The notes beneath the pieces are model-generated. The model did not search any database, was not told the DNA's origin, and worked only from the letters and a program-made list of their open reading frames with translations. DNA of 64,000 bases from Actinomycetota bacterium (GTDB taxonomy: Bacteria > Actinomycetota > Coriobacteriia > Anaerosomatales > Anaerosomataceae): assembly GCA_009773565.1 (NCBI GenBank), contig WSXY01000004.1, forward strand, positions 1-64,000, given 5' to 3'. Both the position numbers and the translations under genes were made by a program. Shown here in pieces: positions 14,063 through 32,786 of this stretch. Position 1 is the first letter of the stretch; each line of letters begins with the position of its first letter.

Positions 14063-14159
14063 TGGCGGAGGCGCGTGCGAATCGAACACACCCAGGACGC
14101 TCTTCACGCCCCACGTCGGTTTTGAAGACCGCGAAGCCCACCAGGACCCATTCGCCTCC
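14063..14159 (-). tRNA. selC: tRNA-Sec (anticodon UCA)
   Basis: On the minus strand the acceptor arm GGAGGCG pairs with CGCCTCC, then G and an encoded CCA at 14065-14063. The anticodon loop CTTCAAA gives UCA (14125-14123). The long variable arm and total length of 97 bases are typical of selenocysteine tRNA. Together with selA, selB and selD in the same window it makes a full Sec-decoding set. It sits alone between the two multihaem cytochromes. Confidence 0.96.
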
Positions 14160-14309: not shown

Positions 14310-15830
14310 ATGAAGCGCTTGATCGCCGCAGCAAAACGAAAGCCAGCATTGAGCCTCGCAGTCGTTGCGGGTGCTCTCGTCGTGCTCGTTCTGGGCGCAG
14401 TCGCAGGCACCGCTTACACGAACAAGCCCTCATTCTGCACGTCGTGCCACGAGATGGATCCCTACTACACCGCTTGGAACGCGGGCGGACACACCGAAGC
14501 TTCGTGTGTGTCGTGCCACGTCGATCCCAGCGTCGAGGCCCAGATCACTCACAAGTTCGTCGCGCTCAAGGAAGTCTACAACCACTTCACTACCCAGCCG
14601 AAGTTTCCCGGCAAGGTCACAGCCGTGCCAGACAGCCGCTGCATCGCATGCCATGAGGGCACCATTGACAGTGGGATTCCCGGCTTCTCGCATGATGCGC
14701 ACCGTGGCGACCGCGCATGCATCGACTGCCACATGGATGCTGGCCACAAAGTCACTTCGACCGCGCTTGCCGAGGCCGGAATCCTCAATACTGCCGGGAT
14801 GCAGGCTCGCGAGCTTCGCGTCGTGGCCTCTCGCGGAGCCGGCGCCGCTAATCTCTCGGGTCACAAACCGGTGTCGTGCAGCGGTTGCCATGATCTTACA
14901 AAGACCGGCTGCGCAACGTGCCATGACACCAAGAAGAAGCCGCATGCCGTATTCGCCAGCGTAAGTGCAACCACCACCGGCAGCGCTGCGTCATGCACCA
15001 CCTGCCACACCGACGCGAGCCGATGGGCCTTTACGCACCCCGGCCCCGACTCGACGTGTACGACATGCCATACAACTCCAGCGAAGCACCGGGCGGGTGC
15101 TTGCGCGACCTGTCACACGAAGTCCGGCACGTCCTGGGCCTTCGAGCATCCCTCCTCCTCCGCAGCGTGCACGTCGTGCCACACCCGCCCGGCAGCTCAC
15201 TCAACCGCGCTCTGTACCACCTGCCATAAGACCGGCGTCTCCTGGAAGTTCTCGCATCCGACCTCGACGAGCTGCGCGAGCTGCCATACGAAGCCAGCCG
15301 GTCACTACGCTGGCACCTGCTCGGCATGCCACTCCCCGAGCGTTCCCTTTGCAAACACGCGCTTCTCGCATCCCGGTGCGAAGGCTAACTGCGCCAACTG
15401 TCACGCCAGGCCCGCGAACCACTACGCCGGCGCATGCAACAGCTGTCACTCGCCGAAGATCGCATTCGCGAAGACAACCTTCAAGCACCCTGGCAGCACA
15501 GCAACGTGCACGAACTGCCACAAGCGACCGGCTGGCCACTCCGCTTCAACGTGCGCCACGTGCCACAAGACGGGCGTGTCGTGGAGGTTCTCGCACCCCA
15601 CGTCGAAGTCGTGTGCCTCGTGCCACAGGGCACCCGGCGGCCACTACGGGAGCACGTGCTCAAGCTGCCACTCGCCTTCAAGAGCCTGGAGCAGCGCCAC
15701 ATTCACCCACCCGCGCGTTCCGGGCGGAGAGCATACCTACCGGAGCTTCGCCTGCAACAAGTGTCACCCCAGTGGTTATACCTCGGGATCGTGCACGTCG
15801 TGCCACGGACCGGGTGGACCGAACGATTAG
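14310..15830 (+). CDS. Membrane-anchored multihaem c-type cytochrome (21 CXXCH), NapC/NrfH-like N-terminus
   Basis: A single N-terminal helix (ALSLAVVAGALVVLVLGAV) is followed by 21 CXXCH motifs in 506 residues. The first four haems resemble the NapC/NrfH anchor; from about residue 190 onwards there is a tandem series of short units of the type CXXCH-KPAGHY-CXXCH-FSHP. It is the expanded relative of the 12-haem protein encoded on the other side of tRNA-Sec: both end with EHTYRSFACNKCH-like sequence. GGAG lies nine bases before ATG. Role inferred: quinol oxidation and electron transfer across the envelope. Confidence 0.94.
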   Translation: MKRLIAAAKRKPALSLAVVAGALVVLVLGAVAGTAYTNKPSFCTSCHEMDPYYTAWNAGGHTEASCVSCHVDPSVEAQITHKFVALKEVYNHFTTQPKFPGKVTAVPDSRCIACHEGTIDSGIPGFSHDAHRGDRACIDCHMDAGHKVTSTALAEAGILNTAGMQARELRVVASRGAGAANLSGHKPVSCSGCHDLTKTGCATCHDTKKKPHAVFASVSATTTGSAASCTTCHTDASRWAFTHPGPDSTCTTCHTTPAKHRAGACATCHTKSGTSWAFEHPSSSAACTSCHTRPAAHSTALCTTCHKTGVSWKFSHPTSTSCASCHTKPAGHYAGTCSACHSPSVPFANTRFSHPGAKANCANCHARPANHYAGACNSCHSPKIAFAKTTFKHPGSTATCTNCHKRPAGHSASTCATCHKTGVSWRFSHPTSKSCASCHRAPGGHYGSTCSSCHSPSRAWSSATFTHPRVPGGEHTYRSFACNKCHPSGYTSGSCTSCHGPGGPND

Positions 15831-17580: not shown

Positions 17581-18979
17581 GCGGCTCACGGCAGTTGGCC
17601 GGGTCGCGCTTGCGATGTCAATCACACTGACCGTGGGAGTCGTCGCCCTGGCGGTGACGTCATACGTCGCTGTCTCGCGGAGCCTTTCCGCAGATATCGA
17701 CAGAGCCCTACTCCGCGAAACAGAGGCCTACACGGCCGCAATTCAGAGCAGCGAGGCCGAGACGGGGACCGGCGGCCTCATTGAGGTTTCACGAACCTAC
17801 CTGGCCGCCCGCACTAAGGCCGAGGCAGGGACGCACCCTATCCTTCTCGTGCGAATCATCGGCGGACGGGTCATCTCGAACTCGAACGTGCCCATCGAGA
17901 GCGCACCCGGAAATGTGACGCTGCCTTCGCTAGGATTTGCAACGGTCAGCCTTGACGGGGCGGACTACCGCGTGGCCACCACGCCAATCCTCGGAAGCGG
18001 CGGGGACGTCGTTGGCGTCTTCCAGTCGGCGCTGTCTACAACATACATGGAAGGTGTCGCTGCCGAGCTTGCATGGACCCTCGGTTTCGCCGGTGTGGTG
18101 ATCACGATCATCGGCGTCTCCCTTTCGGTCCTGGCCGCCGGTGCCAGCCTCAGCCCGCTTCGCGAGGTCGCGGCAACCGCCGGACGGATCACGAAGGCCT
18201 CACTTGGCGGGCGAATTCCCTACGACGGGCCACGTGACGAGGTAGGTGCCGTCGTCGAATCACTGAACGCCATGCTCGACCGGCTCGAAGCCGCATTCGC
18301 CGAGCAGAAACGCTTCGTCGCCGACGCCTCTCACGAACTTCGCACACCACTTGCCGTCGTGCGGGGTAACCTCGACCTCATCGACCACGCGAACACCTCG
18401 CCCGAGGCCAAAGCAGAGTCGCTGCTGGCGATCAGGGAAGAGAGTGGCCGCATCGAGCTTCTCGTCGACGACCTGCTCTCACTCGCACGCCTTGATCGCG
18501 GCGTTGATCGACCGTTCCAGCTGCTCGACGTTGCCATCCTCGTTGAAGAAGCGACTGCACGGGGACGCGCGATCGGAACGTGCGCGATCAGTTCTTCGGC
18601 CGAGGAAGGCGTCTGGGTCGAAGGCGACCCTGACCTGCTCGACCAGGCGCTCATGAACCTCGTACGCAACGCACTCGCACACACCCCGCGTGGATGCGAT
18701 ATCGCCATCGCCGCAGTCGCCGAGAACGACTCGGTGGCGATATCGGTTGCCGACGATGGTCCGGGAGTCCGGCCAGCGGACCTGCCACGGCTCTTTGAGC
18801 GCTTCTACCGTGCGCCCGGCCCCCGCGACGGCGCGAGTGGCGGGAGCGGACTTGGGCTGGCGATCACAAAACGCCTTGTCGAACTGCACGGCGGCACCAT
18901 CGAGGCCGCCAACCGCGAGGAGGGCGGCGCCGTCTTCACCATCCGCCTGCCGCGCCGCACGGCCCCCGCAGGGGACTAG
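17567..18979 (+). CDS. Sensor histidine kinase
   Basis: Two membrane helices (about residues 15-37 and 165-190) flank an extracytoplasmic sensor domain; then HAMP, HisKA with the phospho-His in FVADASHELRTPLAVV, and HATPase with N (LVRNALAHTP), G1 (DDGPGV) and G2 (GSGLGLAI) boxes. The GTG at 17567 overlaps the regulator gene by 14 bases and is chosen because the open frame upstream is inside that gene. The stop shares CTAG with the convergent selB stop. Confidence 0.92.
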   Translation: MSGRRRLTAVGRVALAMSITLTVGVVALAVTSYVAVSRSLSADIDRALLRETEAYTAAIQSSEAETGTGGLIEVSRTYLAARTKAEAGTHPILLVRIIGGRVISNSNVPIESAPGNVTLPSLGFATVSLDGADYRVATTPILGSGGDVVGVFQSALSTTYMEGVAAELAWTLGFAGVVITIIGVSLSVLAAGASLSPLREVAATAGRITKASLGGRIPYDGPRDEVGAVVESLNAMLDRLEAAFAEQKRFVADASHELRTPLAVVRGNLDLIDHANTSPEAKAESLLAIREESGRIELLVDDLLSLARLDRGVDRPFQLLDVAILVEEATARGRAIGTCAISSSAEEGVWVEGDPDLLDQALMNLVRNALAHTPRGCDIAIAAVAENDSVAISVADDGPGVRPADLPRLFERFYRAPGPRDGASGGSGLGLAITKRLVELHGGTIEAANREEGGAVFTIRLPRRTAPAGD

Positions 18980-20883
18980 CCAAGCCTGCCAAGCGTCCGG
19001 GTGTCGCCGTCGCGCTTGGTGGTGCCCTGCGCGTCGAAGTACTCGAGCAGCGGCACGATGTACTTCCGGCTCGAACCCGTGACATCCCGTGCGTCCTTCG
19101 CGAGCATCGTCGCGTTCTCCCGCAGGTAGCCGGTGATCTTCTCGCGCGCGATGGTGATAGCGGCAGCGTCAAAGTGCAGATCGGGTCCGAGACGGATGAC
19201 GGCGCCCTCGGCCACCAACTTCGTGAGCGCCTTGCGGACGACACCCGCGTCCATGCCGACCTCGACCGCAAGCTCGGCCACCGTTCCCGGCGAGAGCGCT
19301 GCCCGCTGCAGCGCGGGAACGATCGCCTCACGGGCGGCGGACTCCTCGGCAATCGCGGTCGATGCGGCCCTCGGGTGCCGCACTTCGCCACCTGCGATCG
19401 CCACGGCTCCGCGCGAAACGCCGATACCGAGAATCTCGTCGAACGCTTTAGGCTCGAGCCGACGGTCGACTCGATCGCGGAGCGCCAGCGTTGCGATGCC
19501 GGTCACCTTCGGGTTGGCCTCGTGGAACGCGAGCAACTCTCTCTCGATCCCGCTCAGGATCTCTTCGAGCGCCTCGGAGGTCACAAAGTAGGTGTCGCTG
19601 CCGATCTTGAAGCGCTCCAGCTTTGCGCGATTGAGGTCATCGGCCACGCCCGCGCGCGGGATGCCGAGCGCAGTTGCGACCTGCGCGGACGTCATCGGAA
19701 TCCCCCGGGCCTCCAACAGACCGATCGCGGCCCCTGACAGGTCGTGCAGTACGAGCGCTTCGAGCAACTCGCGTTCGTGCGGCTTGAGGGTGGTTCGTCG
19801 CGACGGGAGTACATCGAGCACCAGTCCGCCGCCGATCGTCCACATCGGCGAGTACGACCGGATGATGAAGTGGTCGCCATAGCGCGGCGCAAGCGGTTCT
19901 TCAAGCCGCACCTGGGCAACAGCGCGCCCGCCGGGGAGCAGTGCGGGCACGTCCATGAAGAGCACGCGACCGAGAACCTCGCGAGTGCCGTGGTGCACGT
20001 GCACCCGGGTCCCGCTCTCAAGCGGCTTATCCTCGGTGGCGAGGTAGGTCACATGCGCGTCGAAGCGATCGGTGATGCTCAGCGTGCCCGGCTCGGCCAC
20101 GATGTCGCCTCGCTCGACCTCGTCGCGCTCGAGTCCGACGATATTGAGCGCGACGCGGTTGCCAGCGCGGGCGCGCTCGACCTGCTCGCCATGCATCTGC
20201 ACCGATCGGATGCGCCCTCGATTACCGGACGGGAAGAGTTCGACCTGGTCGTCCCGGGTCACGCTTCCCGACCAGAGCGTGCCGGTCACGACCGTGCCCG
20301 CTCCGGAGATCGTGAAGACGCGGTCGACCGGCAGGCGCAGCGGTAGGTTCGCGTGGCGTGCCTCCGCCAGCTCCGCGACGCCATCAATGGCCGCGAGCAG
20401 CTCCGGGAGACCCGCGCCTGTCTTGCTCGAGACGGCCACGATCGGTGCGCCGTCGATGGAGGTTCCCGCGATGAGCAGGCGGACCTCCTCGGTCACCAGG
20501 TCTATCCAGTCGTCGTCCGCAAGATCTGCCTTCGTGATGGCGATGACGCCCTTCGGGATGCCGAGAAGATCGATGATCGCGAGATGCTCACGGGTCTGCG
20601 GCATGACGCCGTCATCGGCGGCCACGACAAGCAACACGACATCGATGCCCGTGGCACCGGCGACCATCTGGCGGACGAACTTCTCATGCCCGGGAACGTC
20701 GACGACGCCCATCGTGCGCCCGCTCGGGAGTGCCAACTGTGCGAACCCAAGCTCGATCGTGATGCCGCGGGCCTTCTCCTCGGCAAGGCGATCCGGATCG
20801 GTGCCGGTGAGCGCCTTAACGAGGGACGACTTGCCATGATCAATATGCCCTGCGGTGCCGAGGACAAGCGACGGTGCAGTCAT
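18976..20883 (-). CDS. selB: Selenocysteine-specific elongation factor SelB
   Basis: GTPase domain with GTAGHIDHGKSSLVKAL (P-loop), DVPGHEKFV (G3) and ITKADL (G4), followed by EF-Tu-like beta-barrels and a C-terminal array of winged helices that binds the SECIS hairpin. The family delivers Sec-tRNA to UGA codons. ATG 20883 overlaps the stop of the HEPN gene as ATGA, and its AGGAG ribosome site lies inside the HEPN coding sequence, so the two are translationally coupled. About 636 residues, a normal length. Confidence 0.96.
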   Translation of the reverse strand: MTAPSLVLGTAGHIDHGKSSLVKALTGTDPDRLAEEKARGITIELGFAQLALPSGRTMGVVDVPGHEKFVRQMVAGATGIDVVLLVVAADDGVMPQTREHLAIIDLLGIPKGVIAITKADLADDDWIDLVTEEVRLLIAGTSIDGAPIVAVSSKTGAGLPELLAAIDGVAELAEARHANLPLRLPVDRVFTISGAGTVVTGTLWSGSVTRDDQVELFPSGNRGRIRSVQMHGEQVERARAGNRVALNIVGLERDEVERGDIVAEPGTLSITDRFDAHVTYLATEDKPLESGTRVHVHHGTREVLGRVLFMDVPALLPGGRAVAQVRLEEPLAPRYGDHFIIRSYSPMWTIGGGLVLDVLPSRRTTLKPHERELLEALVLHDLSGAAIGLLEARGIPMTSAQVATALGIPRAGVADDLNRAKLERFKIGSDTYFVTSEALEEILSGIERELLAFHEANPKVTGIATLALRDRVDRRLEPKAFDEILGIGVSRGAVAIAGGEVRHPRAASTAIAEESAAREAIVPALQRAALSPGTVAELAVEVGMDAGVVRKALTKLVAEGAVIRLGPDLHFDAAAITIAREKITGYLRENATMLAKDARDVTGSSRKYIVPLLEYFDAQGTTKRDGDTRTLGRLG

Positions 20884-21281
20884 GCGGACTCCTGTTCGGT
20901 GAACCATACCTGCACAGCGTACGCTACGCGCTCGGCAACATGCAGAGCGAGTTCGACGTCCTCGCGCACGGGTTCTGGCCAGTCAACCGGATACCGCCCG
21001 GCGACGCTCCAGCGTGTAACGTCCTCGAGGACACCGTCCGTCAGGTCGCCCGCGAGCTCAACTCCACTCAGTGCTCGAAGCTCGACGAGCCCATGCACTC
21101 GCGGAACCCGCTGCCCGAGTCGAATCAGAACCGCCTTGAGGTGCTTCTCGGCAGACTGCTGACACAGCACGCATACTTGGCGTATAGGTATGCCTTTGAC
21201 CTCAATCATCCTTTGCGCCGTGCAGAGATCCTCTGCGGCATACCGCAGCCACTCTGCGGCCTCATCAGGCGGGGCGTTCAT
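20880..21281 (-). CDS. hepT: HEPN-domain toxin of a HEPN/MNT module
   Basis: 133 residues, all helical, starting MNAPPDEAAEWLRYAAEDL and containing CQQSAEKHLKAVL, the helix characteristic of HEPN domains. An R-x4-6-H type nuclease motif is visible as RVPRVH around residue 60. Such proteins are RNases neutralised by the partner nucleotidyltransferase, in known cases by AMPylation. The start overlaps the MNT gene by 17 bases and the stop overlaps selB. Confidence 0.85.
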   Translation of the reverse strand: MNAPPDEAAEWLRYAAEDLCTAQRMIEVKGIPIRQVCVLCQQSAEKHLKAVLIRLGQRVPRVHGLVELRALSGVELAGDLTDGVLEDVTRWSVAGRYPVDWPEPVREDVELALHVAERVAYAVQVWFTEQESA

Positions 21282-21906
21282 AGATCGTCACCCCTTCTTC
21301 GAGCGCATCTCGCACTACCGACGCCTTACGGATGCGCTGCCGGGCGATGTCCGCAGGGTCGGTGGGGATCACATCGAGACCAATCGTACGTCGCCCGATC
21401 GCCGACTTGATGGCGACCATCGCATGCCCGCGATTCCCAACTTCTGGTAGCACGACGAGCAAGTCCACGTCGCTTCCCGCATCGGCGGTCCCGTTTGCCT
21501 GTGAGCCGAAGAGCACGATCTGGATGGGGTCGAAACCTGTGACGATCGCGTCCACCCAGCCGCCAAGAGCTTCTGCAACGTGCGCGTCCAGGTTTGGAAC
21601 CGCCGCTACCCTCGCGCCGTATTGCGCGCGCGGATCGGCCGCAACAAGACCGGCAAGCGCCGGCGCGAACGGATGATCGCCCACGAGTGAAACCTGTCTG
21701 CGTCCGTGTTCGTCGGTCTCAGAACGCACGAGGCCCATATCCCCGAGCCGCTCGACCTCGCGTTGCACGGAAGCGACACTGCCGCCCGCGCTACGCACGA
21801 GCGCCCTCAGGTGCAGGCGCTGGTCGGGCGCGACGAGCAACGCCGCGATCATGCGCGCACGCACTTTCGATCCGAGAAGCTCCTCCAGCATGCTGTACCC
21901 AATCAT
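21265..21906 (-). CDS. mntA: MNT-type nucleotidyltransferase antitoxin with N-terminal winged helix
   Basis: Residues 1-85 form a winged helix (LHLRALVRSAGGSVASVQREVERL); a minimal nucleotidyltransferase domain follows with GSQANGTADAGSDVDLLVV, the GSX10DXD active site. The domain pair is typical of MNT antitoxins that also regulate transcription. AGGA lies nine bases before ATG 21906, which is within a palindromic operator. Partner of the HEPN gene. Confidence 0.88.
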   Translation of the reverse strand: MIGYSMLEELLGSKVRARMIAALLVAPDQRLHLRALVRSAGGSVASVQREVERLGDMGLVRSETDEHGRRQVSLVGDHPFAPALAGLVAADPRAQYGARVAAVPNLDAHVAEALGGWVDAIVTGFDPIQIVLFGSQANGTADAGSDVDLLVVLPEVGNRGHAMVAIKSAIGRRTIGLDVIPTDPADIARQRIRKASVVRDALEEGVTIYERPA

Positions 21907-21936
21907 GGTACGTATTCCTGTACCTGATTATGGTAC
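21895..21936. promoter_or_regulatory. Two tandem palindromic operators at the MNT start codon
   Basis: GTACC-N7-GGTAC occurs at 21895-21911 and again at 21920-21936, centres 25 bp apart. The first copy covers the ATG at 21906-21904. The winged-helix antitoxin is the obvious candidate repressor, so MNT, HEPN and selB would share this control. Confidence 0.8.
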
Positions 21937-21981
21937 ACCCTTGCTCTGACACGCAACAAGGTACCGGGGACCGGGAGTTCC

Positions 21982-23385
21982 CTACTCGCCGGCGATCGCT
22001 TTGAGCGCCGAGACGATCTCGGCCTCTTCGGCGGGCGAAAGCGTGCGCGGGTCGAGGAGCAGTCTGTCGGCGTTGATGCGCGCCACGATCGGCGTCTCAC
22101 CGCGCCGCAGCCGCACTTCGAGTTCGGTCACGCTCATGCGCTGCGGGCTGAGCGTCACTACGACGGTCGGGATATCGGCCATCGGTAGCGCGCCACCGCC
22201 GGCCCGCGATACGTCATCGGACGTGCCCGTCACATACGCGTCGCCGCACGCAGCAGCGATCGCGTCGGCGAAGAGAACCGCTCGCTCGCCGATGGCCGAC
22301 TTCGGCGTCGTGAGCATGCGAAGCGTGGGGATCTCGAGGAGCGCCTGCTCTTCGTCGAGGTACAGCCGAAGCGTCACTTCAAGTGCCGCCAGCGTCATCT
22401 TGTCGAGCCGCACGGCGCGCGCGAGCGGATGCTTCTTGAGCCGCTCGATCACGTGCCATTTACCCGCGAGAATCCCCGCTTGCGGACCGCCGAGAAGCTT
22501 ATCGCCGCTACAACTCACGAGATCCACGCCGGCCGCGATACTCTCGCTGACGGTAGGCTCGTAGTCGATGCCCCACTTGCGCAGGTCGACAAGCACGCCG
22601 GAGCCCTGGTCCTCGAAGACCGGCACCCCGTGCTGGCTTCCCAGCTGCACGAGTTCGGCCGCCGAGACCTCCTCGGTAAAGCCGACCACGCGGAAGTTGC
22701 TGGAGTGGACCTTGAGCAGCAGGCCCGTCGCGGGCGTCATGGCGGCCTCGTAGTCGCGCAGGTGGGTCTTGTTGGTCGCGCCGACCTCGACCATCCGAGC
22801 GCCGCCCTCGCGCATGATATCGGGGATGCGGAAGCTGCCGCCGATCTCCACCAGCTGGCCACGCGACACGATGGCTTCCTTATCGCGAGCAAGACCGGCG
22901 ATACCGAGAAGCACGGCGGCCGCGTTGTTGTTGACCGCCATCGCGGCCTCGGCACCGGTGAGTTTGCAGATGAGCTTCTCGACGTGCACGTGTCGGCTGC
23001 CACGCTCGCCGCTCTCGACATCGTACTCGAGCGTCGAATACCCGCCGGCGACTTCGGCGACCGCATCGACCGCTGCCTGTGCGAGCCGTGAGCGACCGAG
23101 ATTGGTGTGCACGACGATACCCGTCGCGTTGATCACTCGGCGAAGCGAGCGCTGCGCCTTATCGGCCGCACGAAGCGCCACCGCAGCAACGACCGCGTCC
23201 TCGGTCACGTCGGGCTCGGCGCCGGCGAGGATGTCGGCGCGAAGCGCGTCGAGCGTCTCCCGGATGGCGTCGGTCACGAGCGCGCGCGAGTGGGTCGCGG
23301 CAAGCGCAGCAACGTCCTCGCGCTCGAGGAGCAGGTCGACTTTCGGCAGTGCGCGGAGAAGCGATTGAGTATCCATGCTCACCAT
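21982..23385 (-). CDS. selA: L-seryl-tRNA(Sec) selenium transferase
   Basis: A PLP fold-type I enzyme that converts Ser-tRNA(Sec) to Sec-tRNA(Sec) with selenophosphate. The PLP lysine is in CSGDKLLGGPQAG; NATGIVVHTNLGRS and FEDQGSGVL are family signatures. Start: ATG 23385, one base after the upstream PIN stop, with GGA from the PIN 3' end as ribosome site; ATG 23376 (MDTQSLLRAL) is an alternative. About 465 residues, a normal length. Confidence 0.95.
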   Translation of the reverse strand: MVSMDTQSLLRALPKVDLLLEREDVAALAATHSRALVTDAIRETLDALRADILAGAEPDVTEDAVVAAVALRAADKAQRSLRRVINATGIVVHTNLGRSRLAQAAVDAVAEVAGGYSTLEYDVESGERGSRHVHVEKLICKLTGAEAAMAVNNNAAAVLLGIAGLARDKEAIVSRGQLVEIGGSFRIPDIMREGGARMVEVGATNKTHLRDYEAAMTPATGLLLKVHSSNFRVVGFTEEVSAAELVQLGSQHGVPVFEDQGSGVLVDLRKWGIDYEPTVSESIAAGVDLVSCSGDKLLGGPQAGILAGKWHVIERLKKHPLARAVRLDKMTLAALEVTLRLYLDEEQALLEIPTLRMLTTPKSAIGERAVLFADAIAAACGDAYVTGTSDDVSRAGGGALPMADIPTVVVTLSPQRMSVTELEVRLRRGETPIVARINADRLLLDPRTLSPAEEAEIVSALKAIAGE

Positions 23386-23386
23386 T

Positions 23387-23839
23387 CTATCCGAGCAGCA
23401 CTTGAGGGTCGAAGCCATCGGCAAACGGGTTCACGAATCGCACGCCTTCGATCGTTGAACCGTCCGAGAAGTCCTCACTCAGGATCATCGGAATCCGGTT
23501 GAGCCGGGCGCACGCCCAGATCTGCGCATCGTAGTAGGAGAACCCGTAGCGAACGACACCGCGGAGCGCCTCCTCGACGACCGCGTAAGAGGTGTCGTAG
23601 ACCGCGAACATTCCCGCGTACCTGCGCACCTGGTCAGCTGCCGTGCCCAGATCCAGCACTGTCGAGAAGCGTCGCCTGGCCGTCACGAAGAACTCGGCAA
23701 GCACCTGCGCCGAGACCGCTCCCCGATTGCTATCAACCAGGGCAGCGATGGTGGCCGTTGCGCGCTCGCGCTTGCGCATTTCACTCACGTCGAACGAGTA
23801 CACAAGCACGTTCGTATCAACGAGTACTTCCACGCTCAT
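23387..23839 (-). CDS. PIN-domain toxin (VapC-like)
   Basis: Starts MSVEVLVDTNVLVYSFD; further acidic residues in LAEF, SYYDAQIWA and SEDFSDG complete the PIN RNase site. Length about 150 residues. It overlaps the RHH antitoxin by 23 bases and stops directly before selA. A paralogue is encoded at 32060-32524: both share YWDAQ/YYDAQ, LTEDL/LSEDF and a C-terminal NPFADGFD-like end. Confidence 0.9.
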   Translation of the reverse strand: MSVEVLVDTNVLVYSFDVSEMRKRERATATIAALVDSNRGAVSAQVLAEFFVTARRRFSTVLDLGTAADQVRRYAGMFAVYDTSYAVVEEALRGVVRYGFSYYDAQIWACARLNRIPMILSEDFSDGSTIEGVRFVNPFADGFDPQVLLG

Positions 23840-24086
23840 GCAGCTCCTCGCGTGTCCACTTCTGTCCCCTGCTTCCGACCCCGTCGCGTGCGGCCTGCTC
23901 CATCGCCTCAAGGGTCGCCTCCCACGCTGCCTGGCGCCGAAGCTGAGTCTCGGCCTCCACGAGCATCGCGTCGATGGCCTGACGGATCAGCGCCGACTGC
24001 GAGACACCAAGGGCCTTCGCGCGCTCCTCGAGCGCACGCTCCTGTTCGGGCTCGATGACGATCTGCTTTCTCACCATGCGACTCAC
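23817..24086 (-). CDS. Ribbon-helix-helix antitoxin of the PIN module
   Basis: 89 residues: MVRKQIVIEPEQERALEERAKALGVSQSALIRQAIDAML is a ribbon-helix-helix DNA-binding domain, the rest a toxin-binding tail. The GTG at 24086 lies ten bases after GGTAAGGCGG, the same distance as in the second module, so I prefer it to ATG 24077. It should neutralise the PIN protein and repress the promoter that also serves selA. Confidence 0.88.
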   Translation of the reverse strand: MSRMVRKQIVIEPEQERALEERAKALGVSQSALIRQAIDAMLVEAETQLRRQAAWEATLEAMEQAARDGVGSRGQKWTREELHERGSTR

Positions 24087-24162
24087 GTTGACACACCCGC
24101 CTTACCAGGACTCAACCAGCGTCCAACCCACGATGTTACACATCAGTATACACACTCATGCG
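24087..24162 (-). promoter_or_regulatory. Promoter and leader of the RHH-PIN-selA unit
   Basis: On the minus strand TATACT (24150-24145) suits a -10 box inside an imperfect dyad. The leader downstream, including TGGTAAGGCGG, is clearly similar to the leader of the second RHH-PIN module (32787-32828), so the two modules are paralogous beyond their coding sequence. Confidence 0.55.
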
Positions 24163-24184
24163 ATCGGCCTGACCTCACACGCAC

Positions 24185-24209
24185 GAGACCCGGCACGCGG
24201 CCGGGTCTC
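24185..24209. terminator. Hairpin after yedF
   Basis: GAGACCCGGC and GCCGGGTCTC form a perfect 10-bp stem with a five-base loop, 29 bases after the yedF stop on the minus strand. It separates selD-yedF from the RHH-PIN-selA unit. No T tract follows on the minus strand. Confidence 0.6.
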
Positions 24210-24237
24210 TTCGCATCACTTATTCAGTACGTCTCGC

Positions 24238-24576
24238 CTATCCGACGCTCACAACGCTGTCGGCAGCCATGAATGTGGCGACCGTGTCGGGCATGGTGCC
24301 GACCTCGCCCACCGCAAGCGCGTCGGTGAACCCGTAGTAATCCAGGCACGTCCCGCAGGACTTGATGGCGACGCCCTCTGCGGCAAGCATCTTGATGTCG
24401 TCAAGTGCAGCCGAGCCTTCGCAGGTCAGGTGCACGCCGGTGTTCATGAACAGGACGGCTGACGGCGTTGCGTCGGCTCGGGCCAGCGAGTAGAAAAATG
24501 CCTGCATCAGCTTCTTGCCAAGCTCGGCTTCGCCATCGCCGATCCTGTCGGAATTCACGAACACGACCTTGCCCAT
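24238..24576 (-). CDS. yedF: YedF-like selenium metabolism sulfurtransferase-fold protein (DsrE/TusA-like)
   Basis: About 112 residues: MGKVVFVNSDRIGDGEAELG, MNTGVHLTCEG and IKSCGTCLDYYG identify the C-terminal DsrE-like part of YedF, which co-occurs with SelD. The N-terminal TusA-like domain of long versions is missing. Start ATG 24576 has GGAAGGGG at five bases. The open frame upstream lies within selD and is not used. Probably handles selenium on a cysteine. Confidence 0.85.
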   Translation of the reverse strand: MGKVVFVNSDRIGDGEAELGKKLMQAFFYSLARADATPSAVLFMNTGVHLTCEGSAALDDIKMLAAEGVAIKSCGTCLDYYGFTDALAVGEVGTMPDTVATFMAADSVVSVG

Positions 24577-24595
24577 GGGTGCCCCTTCCGCGTCT

Positions 24596-25624
24596 CTAGA
24601 TGACTGTGATGGTCCCTGGTTCACCGGCGACTGCACGTCCGACAACGCTCGCCTCTTCCCCGCGTGCGGCAAGCGCTGCGAGAAGCGCATCCGCCCGCTC
24701 TGGCGATACTGCCATCAGCAGGCCGCCGCTCGTCTGCGGGTCCGCAAGCACACCGCGCCAGTCATCGCCCGCCGGACCCCACGTCACGTGGGGCTCGAGG
24801 AACGCCAGCACGTCTGCCGTGCGACCCGGCTTCACACCGTCGGCCGAATACTCCAGCACACCGGGCCACATCGGCACGCCAGCGAGGTCGATCTCAATCG
24901 CAAGCCCGCTGCCGAGTGCCATCTCGCGCGCATGCCCGATGAGGCCGAAGCCGGTGATGTCGGTGCCGGCGTTCACGCCGACCTCGACCATCGCCTCGCT
25001 CGCGGCCCGGTTCAGGTGCGCCATCGATTCGATCACGACGGCGAGGCTCTCCTCGGTCTCGAGGCCCTTCTTGAGCGCCGTATTGAGGATGCCGACCCCG
25101 AGGCGCTTCGTCAGCACGAGGACGTCGCCGACGCGAGCGCCGACGTTACGAACGACCTTGTCGGGATCGCAGATCCCCATGACCGAGAGGCCGTACTTGG
25201 GTTCCTTGTCGTCGATCGTATGCCCGCCAACGATGACGGCGCCCGCCTCGCGCACCTTATCGGCGCCGCCTTGCAGCACGCGCGCGGTGATCTCGGCTGG
25301 AAGCGAGCAGGGCATCGCGAGCAGGTTCATGGCGGTGAGCGGACGACCGCCCATCGCGTAGACGTCGGAGAGTGCGTTGGCAGCCGTGATACGACCGAAA
25401 TCGTACGGGTCGTCCACCATCGGGGTGAAGAAGTCGACCGTCAGGAGCACGGCAAACTCGCCGAGGCGGTAGACGGCGGCGTCATCGGACGTCTCAAAGC
25501 CCACCATGAGGTCTTCGGACTCCCCCGGTATCATCTTCGCGAGCACAGCCTCGAGGTCACCCGGACCCCACTTGGCCGCTCAACCCGCTTTCGTGGAGAG
25601 CTGCGTAAGACGAACCTGCTCCAT
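24596..25624 (-). CDS. selD: Selenide, water dikinase SelD, itself a selenoprotein (UGA = Sec at codon 15)
   Basis: Makes selenophosphate from selenide and ATP. A plain six-frame ORF would begin only at 25546, but the true N-terminus is upstream: ATG at 25624, then KAG-UGA-AAKWGPGDL, the conserved SelD active-site loop in which UGA stands where Cys or Sec is catalytic (codon at 25582-25580). The frame continues without gap into the rest of the protein (VGGHTIDDKEPKYG and DITGFGLIGHA). The neighbours selA and selB supply the decoding. Confidence 0.95.
25552..25582 (-). promoter_or_regulatory. UGA Sec codon with bacterial SECIS-like hairpin in selD
   Basis: Nine bases after UGA a stem TGGGGTC / GACCTCG (two G-U pairs) encloses the loop CGGGT, starting 16 bases after UGA. 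Position and a small G-containing apical loop fit bacterial SECIS elements read by SelB. Confidence 0.7.
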
Positions 25625-25680
25625 GACGCTCCTCATCAACGTACATCGTATACACCGCATAAGCGGAGTTGATGAACCCG

Positions 25681-25708
25681 ATTATAGCGCGATTCTGCAA
25701 GTCGTCAT
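25681..25708 (-). promoter_or_regulatory. Putative selD promoter
   Basis: On the minus strand a perfect TATAAT (25686-25681) lies 16 bases after ATGACG (25708-25703), a fair -35. The expected transcript starts about 50 bases before the selD ATG. Confidence 0.6.
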
Positions 25709-25750
25709 CGAGGGAGAGCGGGAACAGCGTCAGGAGCTCGATCGACGGTC

Positions 25751-25796
25751 CTCGTCAGAGCTTCGGTCGCATGTTCTCGTCAGAGCTTCGGTCGCA
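25751..25796. repeat. Tandem duplication at the end of the EAL gene
   Basis: A 21-base block beginning CTCGTCAGAGCTTCGG occurs at 25751-25771 and 25776-25796, period 25. The second copy includes the EAL gene stop codon, so the first copy repeats the gene's last codons downstream of the stop. Confidence 0.85.
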
Positions 25797-27135
25797 CGTC
25801 CTCATCGGCCGGGAACGGCTCGCAAGGCTGCGAGAACAGATAGCCCTGACCGAACTCGACGCCAAGCTCAAGCAGCTTCGCCAGTTGCGCGGGTGTCTCG
25901 ATCCCCTCGGCGATGAGCTTGACGCCCATTCTGGCCGCGAAGGTCACGAGGCTCTGGATGAGCTGGCTGCGGACCTCGTCGGTATCCACGCCCTGAACGA
26001 GCGAGAGGTCGATCTTGAGCCACTCGGGCTTGACCTCGGCGAGGCACTGGAGCGAGCCATAGCCAGCACCGGCGTCGTCGACCGCCACCGCGAAACCAAG
26101 TGTGCGCAAGTACTCGAGCGTCGAGCGAAACGCGCCGAAATCCGTGATCGCCGATCGCTCGGTGATCTCGAGCACGATGCTCGAAGGTGCTAGCTCCGAC
26201 TCGGCGGCAAGCGAGGAGAAGACGACGTCGCGCAACTCGGGATCGGCGACAGCCTCGGGTTCCACGTTGATGAACATCAGGCGTCCCGTAGGCATTCGGC
26301 GGGCGGTCTCAAGCGCGCGCTTGCGGCAGAGCCGCTCAAGCTTGAGCACCAGATCGGTGTCGTAGGCGATCTTGAAGAGCTTGTCGGGACGCTCGAACTC
26401 GCTGTCCTTCGGGCCACGGGTGAGCGCTTCGTACCCGATGACCTCCATATCCGAGAGTCGCATGACCGGGTGCACGAAGGTACGGACGTCGCCGGAATCG
26501 ATGATGTCTTGCAGCCGGCGTCGACGGATCTCGGCGTCGTACGCCTCCTGCGAGTCAGCCTCCACGAGGGCATCCTCGAGCGCTTCATGCACAAGTCGCT
26601 CAAGACGGACTTTGGGGTCGTGGCGCACCGTGGAGGCACCAACGTAGCACCCGAACTTGAGATAGAGTGCCGGATCGAGGCTGCTCTGGAGCTCCTTGCG
26701 GATTCGCTCCTGCACCCGTCGGGCGATCACCACGAGATTCTCGTAGACCATGTGATCGCTCGTGCGAGGCGGCGAGAGCAGCACCACGAACGCGTTACCG
26801 GAGATCATGAGCTCGGCGATCATGTCGGAATCGCGCAGCTCGGCGCCCGTGATGCTCTCAAGCGCGGCCGCGACGTTCCGCATGACGTCATCGAAGATCT
26901 TCCAGCCGTAGATCTCCTCGATCTTGGAGTACTTCACGACGTTCACGCACAGCAACGATATCTCGCCGCGCTCCTCGAGAAGCGACTCTATGCGAGGGAA
27001 GAGCAAGGGGGTCGTCGGCAGCCCGGTGACGGGATCGAACAGCAGACGCTTGATCTCGGGATGCGCACGGATCGCGTCATGGAACTCAAGCCATGACTCG
27101 AGGAGGTAGTCGTGAACCTCGTGGCGATCGTGCAT
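25780..27135 (-). CDS. Cyclic-di-GMP phosphodiesterase with degenerate GGDEF and EAL domains
   Basis: 451 residues. The N-terminal half is a GGDEF fold in which the signature is replaced by SGNAF, so cyclase activity is unlikely. The C-terminal EAL domain keeps YEALTRG, FINVEP, EITERS, DDAGAGYGSL, LKIDLSLV and AEGIET, which include the metal-binding and catalytic residues, and ends with GQGYLFSQP. It is predicted to hydrolyse c-di-GMP in the cytoplasm. No membrane or sensor domain is seen. Confidence 0.9.
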   Translation of the reverse strand: MHDRHEVHDYLLESWLEFHDAIRAHPEIKRLLFDPVTGLPTTPLLFPRIESLLEERGEISLLCVNVVKYSKIEEIYGWKIFDDVMRNVAAALESITGAELRDSDMIAELMISGNAFVVLLSPPRTSDHMVYENLVVIARRVQERIRKELQSSLDPALYLKFGCYVGASTVRHDPKVRLERLVHEALEDALVEADSQEAYDAEIRRRRLQDIIDSGDVRTFVHPVMRLSDMEVIGYEALTRGPKDSEFERPDKLFKIAYDTDLVLKLERLCRKRALETARRMPTGRLMFINVEPEAVADPELRDVVFSSLAAESELAPSSIVLEITERSAITDFGAFRSTLEYLRTLGFAVAVDDAGAGYGSLQCLAEVKPEWLKIDLSLVQGVDTDEVRSQLIQSLVTFAARMGVKLIAEGIETPAQLAKLLELGVEFGQGYLFSQPCEPFPADEDVRPKL

Positions 27136-31133: not shown

Positions 31134-32063
31134 TCACCCGGCGCGGTCAAGCACCATCCCATAGAGAATATCGTGCTCGCTCACGAGCGTCGAATCCAGC
31201 CCGGCGAGCGCGAGCGCGGTCTCCAGGATAATCGCACCCGCAACAATCACTCCAGCGCGTGCGGGCTCGAGGCCGACGACCTCGCGACGACGCTCAAGCG
31301 GGAGCGAGGCGAGCATCTCGCGAATGTCGGACAGCGCATGCCCGCCGAGACACGAGCCGTGCACGCGCGCAGGATCGTACGGGTCGAGCGCCATGTCGAT
31401 CGCGGCACAGCTGGTGGCCACGCCCGCGACGGCGATCATCTCGCGCGGTCGCGTGCGGAGTCCGGCGAAGAACGGTCGCAGTTCTGTGGCGACATGCGCC
31501 GCCGCCTCGTCCAGCTCGTGGCGCGATGGCGGATCGCCGTGCAGGTACAGTTCCGTCAGGCGCCGCGAACCGACGTCGATGGAGCGAGAGGATTCGATGT
31601 CGATTCCACCGTCGGCCAACCGCGAGCCCAGGATCAGCTCGGTCGAGCCGCCGCCGGTGTCAACCACAAGCGTATCCTCGCCGCCAAGGTCGTACGTCGC
31701 GCCGAGGAATGATAGCTGCGCTTCTCTGGATCCGGCGATGATCTCCGGACGCAGACCTGCGGCTTCGATGCGGTCGAGAAACGCCGCACCATTGGTCGCG
31801 TCGCGCGACGCGCTCGTGGCAACGCCGAAGATGTCCGTGGCGCCAAGCGCATGCGCCTCAGCGACAAACCCCGCAACGGCGCCTGCGACGCGGTCGATCG
31901 CGGCATCCGAGAGCAGCCCGGTGCCGGTCCACCCCTCGCCAAGGTGCGTGATGGTCGATCGACGCGCGAGCTCGGACACACCGTCGGGTCCGACGTCGGC
32001 CACAAGCAGCCGGGTCGTGACGGTGCCGATGTCGATCGCGGCGTAGCGGGTAGAAGCGTTCAT
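31134..32063 (-). CDS. ppx: Exopolyphosphatase / pppGpp phosphohydrolase family (Ppx/GppA)
   Basis: 309 residues of the ASKHA fold with YAAIDIGTVTTRLLVADV (phosphate 1), GSREAQLSF, VVDTGGGSTELIL (phosphate 2) and AVAGVATS. It belongs to the short actinobacterial Ppx1 type. The ATG overlaps the stop of the upstream PIN toxin as ATGA and takes its AGGAG from the toxin's last codons. In relatives it commonly follows DUF501 directly; here a TA module is between them. Confidence 0.92.
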   Translation of the reverse strand: MNASTRYAAIDIGTVTTRLLVADVGPDGVSELARRSTITHLGEGWTGTGLLSDAAIDRVAGAVAGFVAEAHALGATDIFGVATSASRDATNGAAFLDRIEAAGLRPEIIAGSREAQLSFLGATYDLGGEDTLVVDTGGGSTELILGSRLADGGIDIESSRSIDVGSRRLTELYLHGDPPSRHELDEAAAHVATELRPFFAGLRTRPREMIAVAGVATSCAAIDMALDPYDPARVHGSCLGGHALSDIREMLASLPLERRREVVGLEPARAGVIVAGAIILETALALAGLDSTLVSEHDILYGMVLDRAG

Positions 32064-32524
32064 CGGGTCTCCTGCTCGAGTAGCCGGTCAAGATCGAACC
32101 CGGCCGCAAATGGATCGATCACACGAACCCCCTCGTACTCCGCACCGTCAGCGAGATCCTCGGTCAGAACGACACCGACAAGGTTCAGGCGTGCCGCGGC
32201 AACAACCTGCGCGTCCCAGTACGAGAGCTGATAGCGCTCCTTGAGATACACGGCCTCAGACACGACCATGGGCGAGACCTCGAGAACGCGAAACGAATCC
32301 GCGATCCCACGTACCCACCGAACCGCTGCGTCGGCGGACAGCGGCATGGCGATCCGCTCCGTGACGACGCGGGCGAACTCCGAGAGCACCTGCTGGTAGA
32401 CGACTCCTCTGCCGGAAGCGCGGAGTCGCTCCAGAACGAACTGCGCCTGCGGAGCCCGAAGGGCATCCGTTCCCTCGGCCGCATAGACGAGGACGTTCGT
32501 ATCGATGAACACCTCACCAGCCAC
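32060..32524 (-). CDS. PIN-domain toxin (second copy)
   Basis: Starts with GTG 32524 (VAGEVFIDTNVLVYAAEG), overlapping the antitoxin by 11 bases. PIN acidic residues are in FIDTN, LSEF, YWDAQ and LTEDLADG. About 154 residues. It is a paralogue of the PIN protein before selA and occupies the same relation to a core gene: its stop is part of the ppx start. Confidence 0.9.
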   Translation of the reverse strand: MAGEVFIDTNVLVYAAEGTDALRAPQAQFVLERLRASGRGVVYQQVLSEFARVVTERIAMPLSADAAVRWVRGIADSFRVLEVSPMVVSEAVYLKERYQLSYWDAQVVAAARLNLVGVVLTEDLADGAEYEGVRVIDPFAAGFDLDRLLEQETR

Positions 32525-32786
32525 GGCCGGGAATCCTCTCGTGGATCTCATCGCGATTCCATGTCCTGGACGTCGCGGGCAGACGCTTGCGGCGCTCCTC
32601 GGCCATCGACATCAGTTCGTGCCAGCGAGCATCGCCCGCGCGGGGTCCGCCACTGTCGGATAGCAAGAGATCGAGCGCGTCTCGCATAAGCTCTGCCTCT
32701 GTCACGCCAGTCGCCGCCGCGCGCGCCTTGAGGAGCCGCTCCTGGGTCGCGTCTATATAGAGTTGTTTTCTCACCATGCGACCCAT
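32514..32786 (-). CDS. Ribbon-helix-helix antitoxin (second copy)
   Basis: MGRMVRKQLYIDATQERLLKARAAATGVTEAELMRDALDLLL is a ribbon-helix-helix domain, homologous to the antitoxin at 23817-24086 including the start region MxRMVRKQ. ATG 32786 is ten bases after GGTAAGGCGG. It should bind the palindrome 43 bases upstream. Confidence 0.9.
   Translation of the reverse strand: MGRMVRKQLYIDATQERLLKARAAATGVTEAELMRDALDLLLSDSGGPRAGDARWHELMSMAEERRKRLPATSRTWNRDEIHERIPGRGW

Follow-up and report, generated by a model that had tools for sequence, protein, structure and literature searches.

Toxin–antitoxin-type modules at two junctions of a selD–yedF–selA–selB operon in the Anaerosomataceae

In the window, that is, the stretch of 64,000 nucleotides from an anaerobic Actinomycetota bacterium (class Coriobacteriia, order Anaerosomatales, family Anaerosomataceae; GCA_009773565.1, contig WSXY01000004.1) that we analyzed, the genes for Sec synthesis are interleaved with two modules of the toxin–antitoxin (TA) type. 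The order on the minus strand is selD–yedF–[hairpin]–RHH–PIN–selA–HTH-MNT–HEPN–selB, with open frames; the ORF coordinates and domain matches bear out the order, strands, and junctions given in a preliminary description of this DNA. The arrangement is real, recurs in the family, and was not found described in the open-licence literature that we searched. We consider it probable that the modules are recurrent passengers in a permissive, conserved sel operon, with switches of their own and possible side effects on selB. The preliminary description knew of no earlier account of the arrangement, and combining module and Sec terms in the open-licence literature (titles and the beginnings of abstracts) gave no description of it; the words toxin and antitoxin are absent from the main text of PMC5322559, PMC13188914, and PMC9312934.

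The four sel genes are NCBIfam equivalogs, all above cut-off: selD (selenophosphate synthetase; 24596..25624, with an in-frame UGA (Sec) at codon 15), yedF (24238..24576; 112 aa that match the C-terminal half of the model, TIGR03527, 133.6 bits), selA (21982..23376; TIGR00474, 605.6 bits), and selB (18976..20883; TIGR00475, 380 bits). The tRNA-Sec of the same trait is at 14063..14159 (minus strand), so that SelA, SelB, SelD, and tRNA-Sec are all present. This tRNA-Sec lies ~4.8 kb beyond selB; in several relatives its distance from selB is no more than ~200 bases; the window also contains a 506-aa ORF with many CxxCH motifs (14310-15830), likely a multihaem cytochrome. Pfam cut-offs are exceeded by RHH_1, PIN, SelA, NTP_transf_2/Polbeta, HEPN (PF05168), and the SelB domains; RHH, PIN, and HEPN had no NCBIfam match, and RHH and PIN had no match to a PADLOC model. 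In simulations with 18-30 modules at random positions among 2,200 junctions (an assumed number), one gene somewhere was flanked by a pair of modules in 13-33% of the runs. The double insertion would thus not be unlikely by itself, and it is the recurrence in relatives that carries the weight.

A SelA search of 296 genomes of the class gave a match in 149. The window genes were mapped onto 60 neighborhoods, among which every further family genome with a SelA match (20) is represented; genes in the relatives were called with a custom codon-usage caller, not a standard one, and where an ORF that is not one of the searched proteins has a name marked ‘by eye’ or ‘-like’, that name comes from a reading of its translation. 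SelA and SelB occur together in 135 class genomes, in 130 of them on one contig and strand (the other five were left out); a few genomes (among them G087, G109, G178, G198, G235, G258, and G004) entered the gap count with split SelA fragments, and weak SelA-like matches were left out. The selA–selB gap is ≤200 nt in 13/20 family genomes, 25/28 others of the order, and 80/82 others of the class, as well as in 102/105 genomes of a second class that served as control (the one to which L191, a Peptococcaceae MAG, belongs). In many genomes of the family and order the row selD–yedF–selA–selB is unbroken; this is the default in relatives and probably the ancestral layout. Gaps >200 nt are found in 7/20, 3/28, 2/82, and 3/105 of these genomes, respectively; the family differs from the rest of the class with a Fisher p of 0.0004 (7/20 vs 5/110), which is optimistic for related genomes, and from the rest of the order with p 0.07 (7/20 vs 3/28, likewise related). 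Outside the family, the interruptions looked at in G095 (M48/LemA-like ORFs) and G087 (PilT-like ORF), read by eye, hold no recognised module; this reading leaves out G137, G198, G251, G395, G409, and G369.

Within the family, MNT–HEPN lies between selA and selB in 3/20 genomes (G000, which is the genome of the window, G013, and G077, with gaps of 1101, 1099, and 1096 nt) and not in the congeners G031, G071, and G010. Four genomes of two genera (G149, G016, G075, and G057; L051, L052, L044, and L050) have at this junction a 125-aa ORF that corresponds to no recognised module, the two copies searched giving no Pfam match; this ORF is itself a candidate selenium-linked protein. RHH–PIN stands beside selD (after yedF where present) in 11/27 family genomes, a count that keeps G149, where a further selD copy lies on a different contig and contamination is 5%, so that its RHH–PIN may be foreign. 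The pair adjoins selA only in G000 and G047; in the other 9/11, PIN is followed by an antisense ORF (in four genomes it is ~1,400 aa long, in four more the contig end truncates it, and in G007 it encodes a 423-aa ferredoxin-type protein). The ~1,400-aa antisense ORFs (L123, L124, L125, and L126), which lie between PIN and selA, have signal-like N-termini; their ends are 1 to ~25 bases away from the stop of PIN, some have a zinc-ribbon ORF as neighbor, and the one searched had no Pfam match. A Phd-MNT-type module ends at the same selA seam in G077 and G057, where the upstream gene is divergent; a TrmB-type HTH is matched below cut-off in the Phd-MNT proteins, and the ORF behind the Phd-MNT gene in G077 had no Pfam match.

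In the comparison of selA/selB neighborhoods that had been proposed, the same modules recur in some relatives and are absent from many that have the four sel genes. Since module-free family members (e.g., G031, G071, G010, and G025) keep all four, the modules are not needed to keep them. In G049 and G045 (L127 and L129), selD-RHH-PIN is near a contig end, and neither selA nor a true selB nor a high-scoring tRNA-Sec was found; this may be a loss of the trait or, as the contigs end inside the neighboring ORF, a broken assembly. Sister genomes have sel operons with no module, one module, and two modules, a comparative series in which one can ask if host genes are altered by a module that settles in their metabolic operon.

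The RHH–PIN module begins behind a GC-rich hairpin after yedF (24185..24209) that had been seen before; folding confirms a strong 10-bp stem (z -4.0), terminator-like and without a U-tract, and similar stems are seen by eye in 4/10 other RHH-PIN loci (G075, G077, G045, and G047; two were folded). A terminator scan of the minus strand from the module starts to selA/selB gave one site, inside PIN (23714-23693), no more than chance. The RHH antitoxin-like gene (23817..24086; PF01402, 27.9 bits; its GTG start is aligned with the relatives) lies directly upstream of, and overlaps by 23 nt, the PIN-domain, VapC-like toxin gene (23387..23839; PF01850, 38.5 bits, above cut-off). Residues D8, E49, D104, and D123 of PIN, which we take to be catalytic, are invariant in 12/12 aligned sequences; the pair has the marks of VapBC, that is, a PIN with conserved acidic residues behind an overlapping gene for a DNA-binding antitoxin. 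Upstream of RHH, the direct repeats TGTGTA-N6-TGTGTA, with TATACT inside (24137..24154; 1 in the window vs 0.09 expected), are operator-like and form a putative operator/promoter; they are exact in 10/11 sel-linked loci and have one mismatch in G007.

Embedding of PIN genes before other genes is common in the genome of the window, since 8/15 placed PIN genes have a co-directional gene within ~160 nt downstream and two others end at a contig end (the genome has 17 PIN matches, of which L164, not called, and L174, a 363-aa PIN protein, were set aside). Two of those 8 abut or overlap the downstream gene, one before selA and one before a ppx/gppA-like ORF. The window holds a second RHH-PIN pair at 32060-32777, near a tRNA-Leu, whose PIN overlaps a downstream ppx/gppA-like ORF (31134-32063).

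At the seam before selA, the PIN stop had been placed one base from the selA start; TAG (23389-23387) and an in-frame ATG (23385) are indeed one base apart, but the likelier start is ATG 23376, which leaves 10 nt after the PIN stop and has an ATG at its position in 48/48 aligned selA loci. A TANNNT sequence is located 12–14 nt before the selA ATG in 48/48 readable loci of the family and order, with or without a module (of 49 loci, one reads N at the site; five order genomes with SelA matches, G067, G087, G099, G109, and G141, were left out); in 39 of the 48 it has the form TAGAAT, which in the window is a -10-like element at 23384..23389, a putative promoter of the leaderless type. The same test passed 0/45 selB, 0/40 yedF, 0/43 selD, 2/264 other called genes, and 0.5% of random positions, using automatically called starts, at which 37/49 selA pass, the caller often choosing another start. 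The longer pattern GGMTAGAATGG occurs once in the window vs 0.02 expected. According to PMC3160421, TANNNT ~12 bp before the start is a published sign of leaderless genes, which are frequent in Actinobacteria, and selA bears this sign. A generic promoter scan (18900–25800) gave 2 sites vs 0.9 by chance, of which the first precedes selD and the second ends in the TAGAAT of selA; it found neither module promoter.

The TAG of TAGAAT is the PIN stop codon in G000 and G047 and the stop codon of the ORF behind the Phd-MNT gene in G077 and G057; modules of two kinds therefore end flush at the promoter-like site and leave it intact. This coincidence of stop codons, expected by chance for one frame in three per insertion, is suggestive only. 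Because selA has its own conserved promoter-like site, it need not be driven by a module. The preliminary description had each TA promoter also drive a Sec gene and named strong independent promoters directly before selA and selB as an observation that would speak against this; before selA a putative promoter is present, as judged from sequence, in all 48 readable loci, so the claim is not supported for selA and is still plausible for selB. The selA seam also holds a caution: adjacency of genes is not the sharing of a promoter, and exactly there a promoter-like site survives.

The histories of RHH–PIN and selD are discordant. Between G045 and G047, nucleotide identity is 76% for selD, 88% for RHH, and 86% for PIN; between the congeners G057 and G075 it is 90%, 75%, and 68%, respectively. 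As module and selD identities disagree, RHH–PIN is not tied to selD by descent, which points to horizontal exchange. In the RHH–PIN tree, the sel-linked set needs two label changes (bootstrap 2–3; the starred branches force only 1), with G007 as the outlier; without G007, the ten sel-linked pairs form one side of the tree, with weak support (77/54). We did not adopt a single vertical origin for the sel-linked pairs in view of the two label changes, yet one clade is not rejected (p-AU 0.094). A PIN family specific to sel operons was also considered and rejected: among 78 named loci with related PINs, 9 show sel genes and 69 show none in the flanks covered (up to 8 kb of DNA on each side, some cut by contig ends). 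Two close RHH-PIN relatives (L179/L180) are located between hisE-like and trpE-like ORFs, named by eye.

The second module consists of an HTH-MNT antitoxin-like gene (21265..21906; PF01909/PF18765; PADLOC PDC-M05A, 7.6e-17), with a probable start at ATG 21891, where its two homologues begin, and a HEPN toxin-like gene (20880..21281; PF05168, 64.3 bits; the genome has 2 PF05168 HEPN matches). In the MNT protein, a MarR-type HTH (19.8 vs 27 bits) and the NCBIfam MntA_antitoxin model (28.6 vs 60) are below cut-off; the motif GSX10DXD is kept in 3/3 proteins, with G134, S135, D146, and D148 invariant. The HEPN protein lacks RX4HXY: the window copy has R58-x4-H63 but L65 at the +2 position, and R58 is absent in 2/4 aligned HEPNs; the tyrosine Y97 is invariant in all four. 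Following PMC7641770, we assign the module to class II, since a PF01909 MNT with GSX10DXD stands beside a PF05168 HEPN without RX4HXY; that paper, from 2020, reports that no biochemical study of class II was known and that toxin activity was unproven. Two palindromes of the form GTACC-N7-GGTAC (21920..21936 and 21895..21911, 25 bp apart; 2 in the window vs 0 expected) precede HTH-MNT; both are kept in G013, and in G077 one is exact and one has an 8-nt spacer. Both modules thus carry conserved operator-like sequences upstream, and these repeats (11 RHH loci; 3 MNT genomes) support the suggestion that each has its own upstream promoter region.

The MNTs of the three genomes are 61-69% identical, and their partner HEPNs at the same place only 33-44% (alignments A2 and A3); as a side reading, this would reflect toxin replacement or fast change. 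One scan of viral contigs, made in view of a mobile vector for MNT, found no relative. Other MNT-type genes, without HTH, are found right after a lysA-like ORF in the genome of the window (L133, 7975-8304, then repeats and a cas2-like ORF) and in G055 (L132, 46-766).

The overlap of the HEPN TGA with the selB ATG as ATGA (20883-20880) stands as it was described; the same overlap is present in G013, the two genes abut in G077, and the last HEPN codons hold GGAG in G000, G013, and G077. TANNNT at -12 to -14 was found before selB in 0/45 loci of the family and order, where the alignment-derived starts are approximate and the called starts agree. Since selB has no TANNNT site and overlaps HEPN, input from an MNT promoter stays plausible; selB probably relies on transcription that comes from selA or MNT, and it may be the one place where the earlier idea of a shared promoter holds.

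In the explanation we favor, an ancestral selD-yedF-selA-selB operon would have received two ordinary chromosomal TA-type modules by insertion at two of its junctions: a VapBC-like RHH-PIN after yedF and a class II HTH-MNT/HEPN after selA, each bringing its own, probably autorepressed, promoter. RHH-PIN would lie between the terminator-like hairpin and the leaderless-type promoter of selA, whose -10 TAG doubles as the PIN stop, so that selA could be transcribed without the module. The gene selB would have lost its tight junction with selA; its transcripts would start at the selA promoter and run through MNT-HEPN, or start at the MNT promoter, or both, and its translation would presumably be coupled to HEPN, whose last codons could supply a Shine-Dalgarno-like sequence. 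The modules would have been gained, swapped between genera, and be absent from many relatives, and any effect on Sec synthesis would be incidental and would most likely act through the dosage of SelB. Against this reading, the family is enriched for interrupted junctions, though 4/7 of these are the 125-aa ORF; the presence of three different kinds of module in a single operon may be more than chance; the difference between MNT (61-69%) and HEPN (33-44%) identity is not explained by the simple decay of a passenger; and the generic promoter scan missed both module promoters.

The modules could instead be recruited regulators, RHH and HTH-MNT repressing promoters that read into selA/selB and so coupling the decoding of Sec to stress, protease, or nucleotide state. 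The conserved operator-like elements at both modules, the HEPN/selB overlap or abutment in 3/3 genomes, and the Phd-MNT module of G077/G057, which ends at the selA seam behind a divergent gene and makes its promoter a candidate for selA besides the -10 site, are all consistent with recruitment. We nevertheless judge it unlikely, given that selA has its own -10-like site in every readable locus, that many relatives with the four sel genes lack the modules, and that an antisense ORF keeps PIN from adjoining selA in 9/11 RHH-PIN genomes. A further reading, to us still less likely, makes the family's sel operon a dedicated docking site for modules whose antitoxins bind DNA; the HTH-MNT repressor would set SelB dosage, and Sec decoding would be throttled when the antitoxin is saturated; if true, this would be an expansion of the genetic code governed by toxin–antitoxin modules.

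That the modules hold the operon by addiction, loss or replacement of which would free a toxin, seems improbable to us: the window has two modules within one operon, and chromosomal modules are discussed as stabilisers or selfish elements (PMC7280312), but the four sel genes persist module-free in many relatives, and G045 and G049 carry selD-RHH-PIN where the remaining Sec genes were not found (loss in assembly being possible). It is very improbable that the toxins act on selenium decoding itself, e.g., on tRNA-Sec or SelB mRNA. PIN toxins can cut tRNA. For a class I module, PMC7641770 describes HepT as an RNase, and location alone points to a selenium target; however, related PINs are found next to his-trp ORFs and in 69/78 named loci with no sel gene in the flanks covered.

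Of the closest known systems, the host is the bacterial selenocysteine operon selD-yedF-selA-selB, with the same four genes, all above NCBIfam cut-offs; the copy in the window differs by its interruption at two junctions. RHH-PIN resembles VapBC-type modules in having a small RHH gene that overlaps a PIN gene whose match exceeds the Pfam cut-off, invariant acidic PIN residues, and operator-like repeats upstream; it differs in sitting inside a sel operon and in a PIN stop codon that belongs to the -10-like site of selA. Type VII HepT-MntA (class I) shares the MNT motif and the gene pairing with the second module, whose HEPN is without the full RX4HXY and belongs to another Pfam family and whose MNT reaches the NCBIfam MntA model only below cut-off. 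Class II HEPN/MNT modules, as given in PMC7641770, have the same GSX10DXD MNT upstream of a PF05168 HEPN; the module in the window is set apart from these by the weak N-terminal HTH match of its MNT (PADLOC PDC-M05A-like) and by its place between selA and selB.
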